A program made the position numbers and the translations under genes. From Polyangiaceae bacterium (GTDB lineage Bacteria > Myxococcota_A > Polyangia > Polyangiales > Polyangiaceae): a stretch of DNA of 40,409 nt. Each line of letters begins with the position of its first letter. Within the stretch, counting starts at the first letter, position 1. Shown in pieces: positions 35,001 through 40,409 of the stretch. The DNA is taken from NCBI GenBank assembly GCA_009780955.1, contig WQZB01000046.1, positions 1 to 40,409 of the forward strand, written 5' to 3'. The notes under the pieces were generated by a model. That model did not search any database. It was not told the DNA's origin and worked only from the letters and a program-made list of their open reading frames with translations.

Positions 35001-35692
35001 CACGGCGTGGTTGTCCACACGGCAAGTGCCGTGTCCGGCCAATCGACCAGCGGGAACGCCACAAAAACGCTTGGGTCGTCGACGTCTTTGTACCCAAGGC
35101 CAACTTCGGCCGACGAAAGCGCCGTGCCCCCCTGCGCCCACCACCAAAGAACCTTGTTCCCTTGGTACAAAAGGCCTTTTTTGAAAAGCTCGGAAAGCGC
35201 CCACCACACGCTTTCCACATACGAGCGATGATAGGTGACATAAGCGCTTTCGAGATCAGCCCAGAACGCGACGCGCTCGGTCAGCTCTTCCCACTCCTTG
35301 GTGTAGCGAAAAACGGACTCGATGCAGCGCTTGACGAAGGGCTCGACGCCGTACGCTTCAATCGCGGTCTTGCCATGAATGCGAAGCTCTTTTTCGACTT
35401 CGACTTCGACGGGAAGGCCGTGCGTGTCCCAACCGGCTTTGCGCGCAACGTGAAGGCCACGCATTGTTTTGTAACGCGGGAACACGTCTTTGATAACGCG
35501 TGTCAGGACATGCCCATTGTGGGGTAAGCCGTTGGCTGTTGGCGGGCCCTCGTAGAAAACGAAGGGCTCTCCGTGTGCGGTTTGGGCGAGCGATTTCTCG
35601 AAAATGCGCTGCCGTTTCCAGAACGCGAGCATTTCGTGCTCTTCCTTCGGGAAATCAAGCAGGCTTGGGACTTTGTCAAACCGCGACGACAT
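32009..35692 (-). CDS. ileS: isoleucine-tRNA ligase (type with DUF5915-like C-terminus)
   Basis: This 1,227-residue class I synthetase charges tRNA-Ile. The HIGH motif is HNGH (residues 58-61, in GPPTANGLPHNGHVL). The editing domain is present (AVWTTTPWTLPSN, ATGIVHVAPAFGE). The KMSKS equivalent is KESKS (644-648), with Glu at the second position. Between KESKS and the following PGADAFRWFFFAASPPW there are about 108 extra residues (about 663-770). The tRNA-binding helical domain and a C-terminal DUF5915-like part follow (VVVIDTRLTSELRDLGYLRELLNRLQTARKEMGLEFTQRI). That tail and the HNGH-type motif place it in the eukaryote-like IleRS2 group, members of which can be mupirocin-insensitive. The start overlaps the acp gene by 17 bp. 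Confidence 0.93.
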   Translation of the reverse strand: MSSRFDKVPSLLDFPKEEHEMLAFWKRQRIFEKSLAQTAHGEPFVFYEGPPTANGLPHNGHVLTRVIKDVFPRYKTMRGLHVARKAGWDTHGLPVEVEVEKELRIHGKTAIEAYGVEPFVKRCIESVFRYTKEWEELTERVAFWADLESAYVTYHRSYVESVWWALSELFKKGLLYQGNKVLWWWAQGGTALSSAEVGLGYKDVDDPSVFVAFPLVDWPDTALAVWTTTPWTLPSNMYAAVNRAFEYAIVRGNAEAAKAGWAKKALENKLVIALDLVGEVAKKLGTTLTVEKKISASDLLGKKYTPPFDTFTHGAPDTAWRIVSEDFVEMSATGIVHVAPAFGEVDFLAHRKLYGADAPIFSAVRPDGTFGPEMGKYGGRWVKDCDKDLIEDLKAKGILIHHETIRHPYPFCWRNDSDPLIQLARPAWYIRTTALIDRAIENSRAVNWLPDHIKEGRFGDFLANNVDWALSRERYWGTPLNVWVNDKTGRMEAPSSISEIVAKNPSAFDPFHEAKKADNSLSEHLMVHKPWIDAVTWQNPGEEGTYRRVPEVIDCWFDSGCMPFAQWGFPHQGRDQFQKSFPADFITEAIDQTRGWFYSLLMIGTLVFDEEVQKRYGITPVRPLPLPYKTCIVLGHVSDKEGKKESKSKGNYTPPDVILERVQMDFAVLDEKASMAKAEEGVAFIARDDMEGLDLTSGASVHVFRADKPELVRTLCVKPHNKLPRRVVVLSQADLEALSVTPTTEKGISPVEVPRRPPSERVTLLDPHTAAPGADAFRWFFFAASPPWSATRHSLSNVRALQKESLIKLRNVYSFFTIYANIDDFDPSQGPLPVGHRSEIDRWILSELHLLTLGVISDLDVYDVYAATGKITSFVDALSNWYVRRSRERFWRAADPNDIDKRAAYETLYTCLVMLSGIMAPFTPYLADAMYRNLVVKGLGAEGAKQPESVHLTRFPESDPKLIDRGLSKTIQAVRDLVSLGLQVRTQAKLKVRQPLSSAKVILADPKLAIRLEAYRDMIKDELNVLSVELVSSETGADEYVVYRIKPNFRALGQKGMGKQAQDLKKVMVAMAPSEAHALATKLLTDGKVTVSGVLVDRDDVEIAFDAKEGYAAAADRVGVVVIDTRLTSELRDLGYLRELLNRLQTARKEMGLEFTQRICVGVAGAERAMRIARDHASTIKTECLVVDLSAGPLPPSPIRDGRDGRESSRREVDVEGDRVELWISKA

Positions 35693-35918
35693 TACCGAGC
35701 TTCTTCTGGACCAAATCGAGCGAACGAGTCAGCGTTGTCACCTGCTGAAGCTCCGAGTCGGCGATCTTCACCTGGTACTTGCGCTCGATGGCCGCAACGA
35801 TTTCGACGCCCATCATCGAGTCGATGCCAAGGTCTTTGAACGCAACATCGTCCGGGATCTCGTCTTTTTCGGCGATCTCGGCGATGAGAGCCCTCAATTC
35901 TTCCTTCAAGTCCGACAT
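35676..35918 (-). CDS. acyl carrier protein
   Basis: This 80-residue protein has the ACP fold: acidic helix 1, the phosphopantetheine site DLGIDSMMGVEI with Ser34, and helix 3/4 (ELQQVTTLTRSLDLVQKKL). The start at ATG 35918 has a good ribosome-binding site (GGAAGGGA). Its last 17 bp overlap the start of ileS. It is divergent from the ketosynthase/ketosynthase/oxoamine-synthase genes, and the most economical reading is that it is their dedicated carrier. It could equally be the housekeeping fatty-acid ACP, but that gene usually sits beside fabF/fabG, which are absent here. Confidence 0.9.
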   Translation of the reverse strand: MSDLKEELRALIAEIAEKDEIPDDVAFKDLGIDSMMGVEIVAAIERKYQVKIADSELQQVTTLTRSLDLVQKKLGNVVAV

Positions 35919-36280
35919 GGCGATCCCTTCCTGTTTCGATGTTCGCGAATGCCTCGAGCACACTCGGGTTGATGAGTGCCATTTGCCATTTGCGCTGAAA
36001 ACGATCGAGCTTGAAAACGATGGAACCCGAAAAAGAACAACGTTTCCCGTCGAGCTACGAGCAAACCGTGAACTCGATTACGCGCTTTGGACCTCTCCTG
36101 TTGCGTCTGTGTGTTTGCATGTTTTGCACTCTGCACGGCGCATGCACATGTCCCGCACATGTTCCGAAAGGCGACCACGACTTCTTTCTTGGCCGTTAAT
36201 AACGATGCAAAACGATACACAACCGTGCAGCGAGACCTTGCGCAACAGGAGCGAAACTCGGTTCGCAGATACGACACAAT

Positions 36281-36297
36281 GTTGAAAGTGGTTCAAC
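36281..36297. promoter_or_regulatory. possible operator, 6-5-6 inverted repeat
   Basis: GTTGAA (36281-36286), AGTGG and TTCAAC (36292-36297) form a perfect inverted repeat. It lies about 50 bp upstream of the predicted -35 box of the ketosynthase promoter, a common place for an activator site. No regulator gene is nearby. Confidence 0.35.
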
Positions 36298-36346
36298 CAT
36301 ACAATGAATCACACGATTTTCCTTGCATGATCGCCGTCACAGCGCG

Positions 36347-36375
36347 TTGCAGTCCACGTTGGGCGCGGATATAAA
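36347..36375 (+). promoter_or_regulatory. sigma-70-like promoter of the ketosynthase gene
   Basis: TTGCAG (36347-36352) and TATAAA (36370-36375) are 17 bp apart, close to the -35/-10 consensus. The ATG at 36387 lies only 11 nt after the -10 box, so transcription should begin about 4-6 nt before the start codon. The absence of a ribosome-binding site agrees with a leaderless or near-leaderless mRNA. Confidence 0.45.
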
Positions 36376-36386
36376 GTGGGTATCGC

Positions 36387-37625
36387 ATGCGTGTATTTAT
36401 TACCGGTGTCGGGGTTGTCAGCTCCATCGGTCTCGGCAAAGCGGCGTACTTCTCTTCCCTCGCGAATGGTGAGAGCGGCATCGCTCAAGTCGAGGCATTC
36501 GATGTGTCGAACCTTGGGCGTGAATTCGCCGGTGAGGTAAAAGGCTTCCGCCCGAAAGATCATCTCACGGCCGGCGAGGCGCGTCGCATGGGGCGTTGCT
36601 CGCAAATGGCTCTTGCGGCCACTCGCATGGCCATCGGCGACGCCGCCTTGCCCGCAGCAGCACTCCAAGGTCCGCGCGCGTCGGTCGTGATCGGCACGAC
36701 CATGGGCGAGGCCGATGTTCTCGGCAACCTCGATCACGCGTGGATCCACAAGGGTGCGTCGGGCGTACGTCGCGCGTGGATCCCGAAGTACGGTTCAACG
36801 CTTTTGTCGATCCATGTTGCACGCGCAATTGGCGCCGAAGGTTCCGTTTTCACCCTGCCCGGCGCATGCGCCGCCGGCAACTATGCGCTAGGCCTCGCGG
36901 CCGACATGATCCGCGCAGGGAAGGCCGACGTCGTGGTGGCCGGCTCGGCCGAAATGCTCCAGCGGCTTCAGTTCTCTGGCTTCATTCGCCTGGCTGCCAT
37001 GGCGCCTGCGAAGTGCCAGCCCTTTGACCTGAATCGGCAAGGTCTCATTCTCGGCGAGGGCGCGGGTGTGCTCGTTGTCGAGAGCGAAGCGCACGCCGTT
37101 CGTCGCAACGCGCGACTGCTCGCCGAGATCGGCGGCTACGGCATGACATGCGACGCCTACCACATCACGCGCCCCCACCCCGACGCCGCGGGCAGCATCG
37201 GCGCCATGCGACAGGCCATCGAACGCTCTGGCATTGGTGTCGAAAGCGTGGACTTCGTCAACGCGCACGGCACGGGCACGCGCCACAACGACGTTGCCGA
37301 ATCGAAAGTCATGCGCGAAATCTTTGGTGATCGCAAAGTGCCCATCTCGAGCATGAAAAGCATGCTCGGCCACTGCATGGGAGCGGCCTCGGCGCTCGAG
37401 GCCATCGGCTGCATCATGACACTCGAAACAGGCATCTACCCACCAACAATCGAGTACGAAACGCCCGATCCCGAGTGCGACGTCGACGTCGTTGCCAACC
37501 GAGCACGCAAAGGTGCGCACGACATCGTGCTCAATAACTCGCTCGCGTTCGGCGGGTACAACGCTGTTACCTGCTTCGCGAAACCGTACAAATTACCCGA
37601 TCCTCCGCATCACCAGGCCGCCTGA
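36387..37625 (+). CDS. beta-ketoacyl-ACP synthase (FabF/KS-alpha-like)
   Basis: This 412-residue condensing enzyme keeps the whole Cys-His-His triad: C161 in LPGACAAGNYAL, H294 in VNAHGTGTRHND and H329 in SMKSMLGHCMGAASALEA, with K324 before it. It should extend an ACP-bound acyl chain with malonyl-ACP. It lies divergent from an acyl carrier protein and is followed by a second ketosynthase lacking both histidines. That pairing resembles the KS-alpha/KS-beta heterodimers of type II polyketide systems. No ketoreductase, dehydratase or enoyl reductase is in the window, so either the fatty-acid enzymes are shared or further genes lie past the right edge. Confidence 0.9.
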   Translation: MRVFITGVGVVSSIGLGKAAYFSSLANGESGIAQVEAFDVSNLGREFAGEVKGFRPKDHLTAGEARRMGRCSQMALAATRMAIGDAALPAAALQGPRASVVIGTTMGEADVLGNLDHAWIHKGASGVRRAWIPKYGSTLLSIHVARAIGAEGSVFTLPGACAAGNYALGLAADMIRAGKADVVVAGSAEMLQRLQFSGFIRLAAMAPAKCQPFDLNRQGLILGEGAGVLVVESEAHAVRRNARLLAEIGGYGMTCDAYHITRPHPDAAGSIGAMRQAIERSGIGVESVDFVNAHGTGTRHNDVAESKVMREIFGDRKVPISSMKSMLGHCMGAASALEAIGCIMTLETGIYPPTIEYETPDPECDVDVVANRARKGAHDIVLNNSLAFGGYNAVTCFAKPYKLPDPPHHQAA

Positions 37626-37636
37626 GTTCGGACACA

Positions 37637-37778
37637 GAGCATGTTTACCAGCCGTCGCGAGCGACGTGAGACCAAGGCGGGCCCGAGGAGCCCGCGTAAG
37701 CGTACTTCTCGTACGTGCGCAGGCACCGCAGGGCCCAACGCAGGTATCGCGGCGCGCAGCAGGCTGGTAAACACGCTC
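37637..37778 (+). repeat. 142-bp element with 17-bp terminal inverted repeats, copy 1
   Basis: The left end is GAGCATGTTTACCAGCC (37637-37653). The right end GGCTGGTAAACACGCTC (37762-37778) is its inverse with one mismatch. Inside are short stems: CGTCGC/GCGACG, GCGGGC/GCCCGC and CGTAC/GTACG. It begins 11 bp after the stop codon of the first ketosynthase and ends 2 bp before the ATG of the second, so it makes up nearly the entire gap. Copy 2 is at 40288. It could be a miniature inverted-repeat mobile element, a structured RNA or both. Confidence 0.85.
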
Positions 37779-37780
37779 TC

Positions 37781-38971
37781 ATGACTCCTCGCGCCATCAC
37801 CGGTCTTGGCATCACGTGTGCGCTTGGCACGGGCGCCGAGATGGTTTTCCGCGCTCTTCACGCAGGCCACCTCGCGCAAGCTTCCAAGGCCATCACAAGC
37901 TTTGACGCCGCGAAGTACGCGAACGATTCAAGCGCCCGAGTGGTTGAAGTTCCCGAGTTCGATCCCACCACGTATCTCGGCAGCAAAGGTCTTCGCACGC
38001 TCGACCGGCTGACCAAGCTGCTCGTGGTCGCCGCGCGCTTGTCATTGCATGATGCACGTATCAAGAAAGACAACCAGTGGGTCGCCCTTTCGCCGGAGGG
38101 CGTCGGCGTGTGCTGTTCGAATGCGTACGGCAGCCTCGAAACCATCACGGAGCTCGATCGAATCGCAACGCTCGAAGACGCGCGCTACATCAACCCCGCG
38201 AAGTTTCCCAACACCGTGTCGAACAGCGCCAGCGGCTATGTCAGCATCTGGGAAGATCTTCGCGCGTTCAATGTCACCATTTCCGACGGCAATTGCGGCG
38301 GGCTCGACGCCATCGCATGTGCGGATCTCTCCCTCGCAACCGGTCGCGCCGCGGCGATTCTCACCGGCGGCGGCGAGGCGATGAGCGAAGCGCTTTTCCT
38401 TGCGTTTGAAAAACTCGGGGTTGGCGGCACGAAAGCCTCGCCATCGGTCGAAACGATTGCGTGCGAAACGATCCTCGGGGAAGGCGCCGCCTTTGTCGTT
38501 CTTGAAACCACGCAAGGCGCCAAGGCCCGCTCGGCGCGCGTGCTCGGCGAAGTCGTTGGTTATGGTACATCGTTCGTTGCGCCTGAAGCCGAGAGCGTGC
38601 TGCTGTTCACGTCCCAAGAGGCGATTTCGCGCGCGATCGCGCAGGCCATCGACGACGCCGGCCTCGCGCCAAAAGACATCGACATCGTCGCCTCGAGCAT
38701 TTCGGGGCTCGCGCAATTCGACGACGAAGAGTTCGCTGCCATCGAGGCCGTTGTAAAAAATGTTCCGATTTGTGTACCGAAGCGAATGTTCGGCGAAACG
38801 TTCGGCGCAGGTGGCACCATGGGCATCGTTTCGGCACTGGGGTGGTTTGATGGCGCTCCGGTCACTGCCCTCGTTCGCGGCGCCGCCCCGTCTCGAATCG
38901 ATCACGTCCTGGTCACGACTGTGGGTTACTACGGCAACGCATCGGCCGTCGTTGTCCGGCGGCCGCGCTGA
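37781..38971 (+). CDS. ketosynthase-like protein lacking catalytic histidines (chain-length-factor-like)
   Basis: This 396-residue thiolase-fold protein aligns with beta-ketoacyl synthases but is degenerate. A Cys remains at the active-site position (C172 in ISDGNCGGLDAI). The NAHGTGT histidine is gone (the region reads VASSISGLAQFDDEE), and the GHxxGA histidine is Glu339 (KRMFGETFGAGG), while Lys334 is kept. It is therefore probably not a condensing enzyme on its own. It would be a KS-beta/chain-length-factor-like partner of the preceding KS. Classical KS-beta proteins differ in replacing the Cys by Gln. The ATG at 37781 is 2 bp after the inverted-repeat element and lacks a ribosome-binding site of its own. 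Confidence 0.85.
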   Translation: MTPRAITGLGITCALGTGAEMVFRALHAGHLAQASKAITSFDAAKYANDSSARVVEVPEFDPTTYLGSKGLRTLDRLTKLLVVAARLSLHDARIKKDNQWVALSPEGVGVCCSNAYGSLETITELDRIATLEDARYINPAKFPNTVSNSASGYVSIWEDLRAFNVTISDGNCGGLDAIACADLSLATGRAAAILTGGGEAMSEALFLAFEKLGVGGTKASPSVETIACETILGEGAAFVVLETTQGAKARSARVLGEVVGYGTSFVAPEAESVLLFTSQEAISRAIAQAIDDAGLAPKDIDIVASSISGLAQFDDEEFAAIEAVVKNVPICVPKRMFGETFGAGGTMGIVSALGWFDGAPVTALVRGAAPSRIDHVLVTTVGYYGNASAVVVRRPR

Positions 38972-39042
38972 CGTAGCGGACGTGAATGAAAGCGCGAAGC
39001 TATTCGTGAAGTGATTGAAATTCGTGAAAGAAGAATCGCAAA

Positions 39043-40275
39043 ATGAGCTTTGTTGACGAAAAAGCACACGCGGAAATGGCTCGAATCCGCGACGCAAAAG
39101 AACGGCAAATTTACCCCTATTATCGAGAGTTCGAAAGCGGAGGCTTGCACACGACCGTCGAAGGTAAACCTATCGTCAATTTCAGCTCGAACGATTATCT
39201 CGGCCTCACAAACCATCCGAAGGTGAAGGCCGCTGCAAAGGCTGCTGTCGACAAGTACGCGTGTGGGCTGTCGAGCTCGCGCGTTCAAGCAACAACCGTT
39301 GAACACGTCGAACTCGAAAAGCGCCTTGCCAAGTGGTTCGGCTTCGAAAGCTGCCTCACCTTCACCACAGGCTACCAAGCCATGGTCGGCACGCTCATGG
39401 CGCTCGCCGACAAAGACACGACATTCATTCTCGACGCCTATAGCCACGCATGCATCCTCGACGGAACCTTCCTCGCGGCGGGCATTCCCGGCCATCAGCC
39501 CGAAGTTCGATTTTTCAACCATAATTCGGCCAAAAGTCTCGAGCGCATTCTCAAAACACGCGAACGCAAGAACGCTCTCGTTCTGGTCGAGGGCGTCTAC
39601 TCCCTCGATGGCGACAAGTCTCCGCTCAAAGAATTCGTCGAAATCTGCGAAAGGTACGATGCGGTTCTCGTGGTCGACGACGCGCATGGCACAGGCACGC
39701 TTGGCGAGCGCGGCACAGGCATCATCGAGGAATTGGGCCTTGCCGGGCGCGTTCCCATCGTGATCACGACATTCTCCAAGACCTTTGGCGGCATCGGAGG
39801 CGTGCTTCTCGGCACGAGCGACGTGGTCGGCTTCATCAAACACACCGCGCGAAGCTTCACCTTCAGCGCGTCGCTGCCCGTGCCCGTTGTCGCGGCCGCG
39901 TCAACCATCCTCGACATGCTCGAAGCCGATGGTCCCGCGATGGTTCGCGAGCTTCATCAGAAATCCGAATACTTCCGAGGCGAGCTCACGAAGGCGGGCT
40001 TCGAACTCGGCACGAGCGACACGCACATCATGCCGGTCATGTGCCGTGAAGAGCGCAAAACGCTTTTCATGCATATCGGCCTGTTCGAATCAGGCATCTT
40101 GATGGTGCCGCTCATCTACCCATCGGTGAAGCATGGCGAGGAGCGCTTGCGTGTCAACATCACGCGCGGCCACACGCAAGAAGACATGGACGTAGCGCTT
40201 GAGCACCTCAAAACATACGGCGAGGCGTTCTTCGTGCTGTCGGGTGAAGAAATCGGGCCGATGGAAGAAGACTAA
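39043..40275 (+). CDS. PLP-dependent alpha-oxoamine synthase (AONS/KBL/SPT family)
   Basis: This 410-residue fold-type I PLP enzyme has the family hallmarks: SSNDYLGLTNHP near 48, STGY-like TFTTGYQAMV, the ring-stacking His in YSHACILDG (H135), VVDDAHGTGTLGERG (D212, H215) and the aldimine lysine in TTFSKTFGGIGG (K246). Members condense an amino acid with an acyl thioester, losing CO2: BioF (alanine), KBL (glycine), serine palmitoyltransferase (serine), CqsA. Which amino acid is used cannot be read with confidence. The neighbouring ACP and ketosynthases suggest an acyl-ACP substrate, so an SPT-like or prodiginine-type role is more likely than biotin synthesis; no other bio gene is present. 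A weak AGAAGAA ribosome-binding site precedes the ATG. Confidence 0.9.
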   Translation: MSFVDEKAHAEMARIRDAKERQIYPYYREFESGGLHTTVEGKPIVNFSSNDYLGLTNHPKVKAAAKAAVDKYACGLSSSRVQATTVEHVELEKRLAKWFGFESCLTFTTGYQAMVGTLMALADKDTTFILDAYSHACILDGTFLAAGIPGHQPEVRFFNHNSAKSLERILKTRERKNALVLVEGVYSLDGDKSPLKEFVEICERYDAVLVVDDAHGTGTLGERGTGIIEELGLAGRVPIVITTFSKTFGGIGGVLLGTSDVVGFIKHTARSFTFSASLPVPVVAAASTILDMLEADGPAMVRELHQKSEYFRGELTKAGFELGTSDTHIMPVMCREERKTLFMHIGLFESGILMVPLIYPSVKHGEERLRVNITRGHTQEDMDVALEHLKTYGEAFFVLSGEEIGPMEED

Positions 40276-40287
40276 AACGCCATCTTA

Positions 40288-40409
40288 GAGCATGTTTACC
40301 AGCCGTCGCGAGCGAATTGAGGCTAGGGCGGGCGCGAGGAGCCCGCGTAAGCGTACGTTGTGGTACGTGCGCAGGCACCGCAGCGCCCAACCGACGCATC
40401 GATTCGCGC
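40288..40409 (+). repeat. inverted-repeat element, copy 2 (truncated by window end)
   Basis: It begins 12 bp after the oxoamine-synthase stop codon with the same 17-bp end, GAGCATGTTTACCAGCC. The first 100 bp or so match copy 1 closely. The stems GCGGGC/GCCCGC and CGTAC/GTACG are conserved, while the loop between the CGTAC arms differs in sequence and length. By comparison with copy 1 about 20 bp, including the right terminal repeat, should lie beyond the window. Confidence 0.8.

Follow-up and report, generated by a model that had tools for sequence, protein, structure and literature searches.

A candidate first-step module for sphingolipid synthesis in Polyangiales that pairs two ketosynthase-type proteins with a divergent alpha-oxoamine synthase

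What does a myxobacterium make with an alpha-oxoamine synthase (AOS) encoded beside a ketosynthase pair and an acyl carrier protein (ACP)? The question is raised by the right end of contig WQZB01000046.1 of a Polyangiaceae bacterium (assembly GCA_009780955.1), analysed here over its full 40,409 nucleotides (the window). A first-pass annotation had described there an ACP with Ser34, a complete ketosynthase (KS; C161, H294, H329), a KS-like protein without both histidines and a complete AOS (K246). All four open reading frames (ORFs) are intact, Pfam and NCBIfam models match these gene assignments, and the details given for the ACP, KS and AOS were borne out by ORF calls, family models and alignments. 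Throughout, A or clade A denotes the AOS encoded at 39043-40275 and its order-wide homologues, and CLF (chain-length factor) the inactive KS-like partner. The reading that we favour, with moderate confidence, is that the cluster would carry out the first step of sphingolipid (ceramide) synthesis in Polyangiales, fed by a KS-CLF pair; sphingolipids are membrane lipids that animals also have.

The distribution of clade A is consistent with such a role. Among 188 genomes of the phylum, each at least 90% complete, A occurs in 23 and serine palmitoyltransferase (SPT) of the CFB type in 44, and no genome has both. Within the order the corresponding numbers are 23 with A, 8 with CFB-type SPT, none with both and one with neither (Fisher p 9e-7, where this and the later Fisher p-value treat genomes as independent and kinship makes them too small). 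From this pattern clade A appears to take the place of SPT in genomes. The CFB-type SPT of Polyangiaceae that lack A (loci L155 and L156) is 35-38% identical to A, and clade CLF was not found in these SPT-bearing genomes. The canonical-type SPTs of A-lacking Polyangiaceae (L155:10118-11851, L156 and L154) are extended at the N-terminus by about 180 aa.

If A stands in for SPT, the later ceramide genes should accompany it. A YghO/bCerS homologue was found in 22 of the 23 A genomes and in every one of the family's 8 SPT genomes; the listed E. coli equivalent of Caulobacter CC_1154, a gene needed for dihydroceramide, is yghO (PMC9386255). In the window genome a YghO-like gene (L147:4831-5967, 37% to YghO) has a CerR-like gene nearby (L147:7622-8605, 30% to E. 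coli CerR), and no SPT adjoins the two, so that homologues of both bCerS and CerR, as expected for a bacterial SPT pathway, are present. The CerR-like gene likewise adjoins the YghO-like gene at loci L149, L150 and L153 of A genomes. At L155 and L156 (A-lacking genomes G019 and G026) SPT comes first, then the YghO-like N-acyltransferase and then the CerR-like epimerase, an order also seen on a Rubrobacter plasmid; SPT adjoins the YghO-like gene at L196 and L197, and at the A-lacking locus L154 SPT alone was found. Since the only other AOS found in the window genome is BioF, which adjoins bioD, A is the only first-step candidate found if the organism makes its own ceramides. The first-pass annotation had seen no ketoreductase beside the cluster. 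Indeed none adjoins it, and this gap would be explained by the likely CerR-like reductase encoded elsewhere in the genome, together with the YghO/bCerS-like N-acyltransferase. Two other candidates were set aside. PF04339 (FemAB-like), found beside the ACP in two relatives, is absent from G000 and G010 and occurs with and without clade A, and was dropped as ceramide synthase on these grounds and because YghO is the documented CC_1154 counterpart. CerR-like matches near another AOS in G003 and G007 are incidental, the AOS there being BioF.

The same distribution bears on an alternative in which the KS pair and the AOS make a specialised metabolite or signal, an alpha-aminoketone of the CqsA, prodiginine or pyrrolinone kind, and not a ceramide precursor. 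KS-CLF pairs are typical of specialised metabolism, no reductase adjoins the cluster, and the only close sister of A (L152, G003:C26:1-10000, 45% identity) has an epimerase, two short-chain dehydrogenase/reductase (SDR) genes and an ACP as neighbours, in what looks like a biosynthetic cluster. However, A is single-copy across Polyangiales at 64-92% identity, unlike a patchy metabolite cluster, and it excludes SPT while the ceramide genes persist. It also fits the CqsA type poorly, with 189 bits against a cut-off of 428 on the CqsA/LqsA autoinducer synthase model NF005526 and a structural Z of about 40. We regard this alternative as unlikely; a free signal, which had been offered as one possible product, gives way to sphingolipid backbone synthesis, to which the distribution points instead.

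In the ketosynthase pair, the triad C161/H294/H329 is invariant in all 51 aligned KS proteins, and in the KS-like protein all three catalytic residues are replaced in 56 of 56 aligned sequences, by Asn, Pro or His in the Cys column, Ser, Gly or Ala at the first His and Glu or Asp at the second; the first-pass annotation had named only the two histidines as missing. An active KS followed by a triad-less paralogue is the arrangement of the KS-CLF pair of type II polyketide synthases (PKS). The cluster KS is not FabF, because a separate housekeeping FabF in the window genome (G000:C12, 609 bits) passes the FabF cut-off and the cluster KS, at 389 bits, does not; the KS-like protein also stays under it. 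By sequence, the closest solved chains are 9s5h_B for the KS (369 bits) and 9s5h_C for the KS-like protein (142 bits), two different chains of one entry. The structure model of the KS-like protein has a ketosynthase fold, and its matches, many of them FabF entries, include KS/CLF entries of ishigamide and actinorhodin. We infer that KS and KS-like protein form a KS-CLF-type heterodimer that would make or extend a dedicated acyl-ACP. A second pair of KS-like genes, close together, is present in the window genome (G000:C15:4742-8983, 312 and 183 bits to FabF).

The gene set is old and conserved across Polyangiales. The nearest relative by AOS (92% identity) is a Polyangiaceae metagenome-assembled genome (loci L010 and L039). 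The first-pass annotation had made its proposal depend on the genes being kept together in relatives, and in most relatives they are; what had been missed is that the ancestral cluster, as relatives show, was larger and also held an AasR-like acyl-AMP ligase and further ACPs. By synteny, this ancestral layout has a thioesterase, ACP1, ACP2 and the ligase on one strand and KS, CLF and AOS divergent from them, the latter three following in that order on the same strand in most loci. Among 47 well-flanked relative loci, ACP1 and KS are present in 40 each, CLF in 42 and AOS in 38; for ACP2 and the ligase the counts are 28 and 24. Identity between the ligase and E. coli AasR is 34%. Downstream of AOS, the Labilithrix-like group has thiamine genes and a third ACP (ACP3), whose identity to AcpR is 45% across 53 aa. 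In the window lineage ligase and ACP2 are gone from the locus, with only a 45% ligase paralogue elsewhere in the genome. In genome G030, L157:7398-11810 encodes a 1470-aa protein that apparently fuses an acyl-AMP ligase to an oxoamine synthase.

This variation in layout raises the question of whether the cluster could be two independent units, with AOS and ACP1 making a sphingoid base from ordinary acyl-ACP and KS, CLF, ligase and ACP2 being unrelated neighbours. In genus f5 g29, KS, CLF and ligase are gone while ACP1 and AOS A are kept as divergent neighbours (L164, L181, L183, L184), and KS, CLF and ACP occur without a nearby AOS in 9 of the 47 loci. At the genome level, however, 33 of 58 related genomes have both A and CLF, two have A alone, one has CLF alone and 22 have neither (Fisher p 1e-12), the sole genome with CLF and without A being 82% complete. 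Together with the recurrent KS-CLF-AOS order on one strand, this makes separate units quite improbable to us. Because ACP1 and AOS stay together in genus f5 g29 without KS, CLF or ligase, ACP1 is probably the carrier used by the AOS. At L164 and L181 a conserved 297-aa gene and an epimerase lie beside ACP1 and AOS. The KS/CLF loci without AOS A inside the fetched flank are L054, L058, L059, L065, L066, L071, L072, L074 and L075.

Is the AOS itself of the SPT type? The catalytic lysine K246, the stacking histidine H135 and the pyridoxal phosphate residues D212 and H215 are invariant in the AOS alignment, as for an SPT-type AOS. The lysine motif reads TTFSKT in the window AOS and STFSKT in most clade members shown, and the window version is nearer to that of SPT (GTFSKS) than to those of KBL (GTLGKA), BioF or ALAS. 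In a 33-row tree under LG+C20, A, its lone relative L152 and the SPTs are split from KBL, BioF and ALAS with support 93/93, and A is also separate in an 87-row FastTree. Alternative groupings were compared by the approximately unbiased (AU) test: KBL with A was rejected (p-AU 0.015), and A with BioF or ALAS was worse than the best tree yet unrejected (p-AU 0.29-0.30). The proposal had also been made to depend on the AOS not grouping with BioF or KBL, and in the trees it does not, with the BioF grouping unrejected at p 0.29. The AlphaFold model of the AOS (pLDDT 83) has the S. multivorum SPT 3a2b as its top structural match (Z 48.8, root-mean-square deviation 1.6, 386 residues aligned), followed by the next non-SPT enzyme at Z 46.9, BioF at about 44 and CqsA at about 40; a resemblance in fold does not by itself establish the reaction. 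A housekeeping BioF or KBL of biotin or threonine metabolism beside unrelated genes, suggested by TIGR00858 bioF having the best E-value of the NCBIfam models (327 bits), is very improbable and was rejected on the tree, on scores that fall below the cut-offs (426 for TIGR00858), on the distinct BioF beside bioD, and on the finding that the conserved neighbours seen beside clade A included no gene of biotin or threonine metabolism.

The data establish the genes, their active-site residues and conservation, the mutual exclusion of A and canonical SPT and the presence of the later genes; from distribution and gene context we infer the heterodimer, substrates, reaction and product of the proposed sphingolipid pathway. 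The KS and its inactive partner would build or extend a fatty acyl chain on the dedicated ACP, with reductive steps borrowed from housekeeping fatty acid synthesis, and in many relatives the AasR-like ligase would load a starter fatty acid onto the ACP. The clade A synthase would then condense the acyl-ACP with an amino acid, of which serine is the likeliest, releasing CO2 and yielding a 3-keto long-chain base. The YghO/bCerS-type N-acyltransferase and the CerR-like reductase, encoded elsewhere, would complete the ceramide. The core of this scheme, a KS pair whose acyl-ACP the AOS couples with an amino acid, yielding an aminoketone lipid, was already put forward in the first-pass annotation and is the best-supported reading, qualified by the loss of the KS pair in genus f5 g29 and by the loci in which no nearby AOS was found. 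Several observations weigh against it. A lies far below the cut-offs of the NCBIfam SPT models (313/640, 278/500 and 226/670 bits, score/cut-off), and in the 33-row tree the SPT references, together with the sequences labelled B, form a clade of their own (100/99) that excludes A, with the BioF and ALAS groupings unrejected. The bCerS/CerR genes show no physical linkage to A. ACP1 is hardly AcpR-like (24%, E 0.007), the KS pair is dispensable, judging by its loss with AOS and ACP1 kept, no AOS was found close by in the nine loci mentioned above, and kinship inflates the Fisher tests. Finally, we know of no sphingolipid measured in any A-type organism, a group that includes the cultured Labilithrix luteola.

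SgaA/SgaB of Pseudomonas fluorescens MYb115, an iterative type I PKS and an AOS with SPT activity that yield C24-C28 sphinganines (PMC12134224), provide a precedent for a dedicated polyketide-type enzyme feeding such an AOS. In both cases a dedicated chain-building enzyme supplies, here presumptively, an acyl thioester to the AOS, but SgaA is a multidomain type I PKS, whereas here a discrete KS, an inactive KS and an ACP are found order-wide. The AasR-AcpR-SPT module of Rhodobacteria (Caulobacter CC_1165/1163/1162; E. coli BL21 ECD_02851-02854) shares with our cluster a dedicated ACP adjoining the AOS, an acyl-ACP ligase in many relatives and CerR and YghO/bCerS homologues in the genome. It differs in that here the AOS forms a clade apart, with a KS-CLF-like pair in addition and an ACP1 that is distant from AcpR, the ligase is lost at the locus of the window lineage and the downstream genes are unlinked; this last point also sets A apart from the CFB-type SPT at L155 and L156, which is linked to bCerS/CerR. 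Type II PKS KS-CLF systems (actinorhodin, 1tqy; ishigamide, 6kxd/6kxf; 9s5h being nearest by sequence) likewise combine an active KS, an inactive paralogue and an ACP. Unlike them, the present pair has Asn (rarely Pro or His) in place of the Cys and Glu in place of the second His, its partner is an oxoamine synthase, and no aromatic-PKS tailoring genes were seen.

Table 1. Positions of the cluster genes and repeat copies in the window
Feature	Coordinates	Strand	Details
ACP1, dedicated acyl carrier protein	35676..35918	-	80 aa; Ser34 in DSMM; PP-binding model; usually next to the AOS
KS (KS-alpha like)	36387..37625	+	412 aa; C161/H294/H329 intact; ketoacyl-synt N+C models
Dispersed hairpin repeat, 146 nt, MITE-like, between KS and CLF	37636..37781	+	terminal inverted repeats, fold, genome-wide copies
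KS-like (KS-beta / chain-length-factor like), inactive	37781..38971	+	396 aa from ATG; ketoacyl-synt N+C models
AOS, clade A; proposed serine palmitoyltransferase equivalent	39043..40275	+	410 aa; K246; Aminotran_1_2/AOS models
Dispersed repeat, second copy, cut at contig end	40287..40409	+	repeat match

The window stops at the contig end, 40409 (the contig is C46 of a 4.2 Mb genome that is 98.7% complete), and the right flank beyond it was deduced from the relatives' loci; judging by L039, ACP3, ThiE and ThiG would come next. The 146-nt element in Table 1 has 18-nt terminal inverted repeats and a single long hairpin (fold z-score -7.9). At least 40 dispersed copies are present in the window genome, and several contigs start or stop within one. 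By these features the repeat is like a miniature inverted-repeat transposable element (MITE), here inserted inside the KS-CLF operon; the nearest relative, L039, has no such element between KS and CLF. An alternative GTG start of the KS-like gene at 37715, giving a longer ORF, falls within the repeat. Rfam matches on the repeat (mir-4888, 30-33 bits, gathering threshold 90) are at chance level.

A broader claim can be offered tentatively, namely that a KS-CLF-fed AOS may have replaced canonical SPT in most Polyangiales, with the type II PKS-like pair determining how long the sphingoid base is and how it is modified. A literature search found no KS-CLF-fed sphingolipid route, and a KS-CLF-type entry into sphingolipids would, to our knowledge, be without precedent, the type I PKS route having been reported in 2025. 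If the replacement is real, very long, branched or beta-oxygenated long-chain bases, so far undescribed, could result. Surveys for bacterial sphingolipid producers that rely on canonical SPT may then overlook much of an order of myxobacteria from soil and gut. The cluster would also be a natural case in which one step of a pathway was swapped and the later steps kept, and would offer a handle on the control of sphingoid chain length in bacteria.

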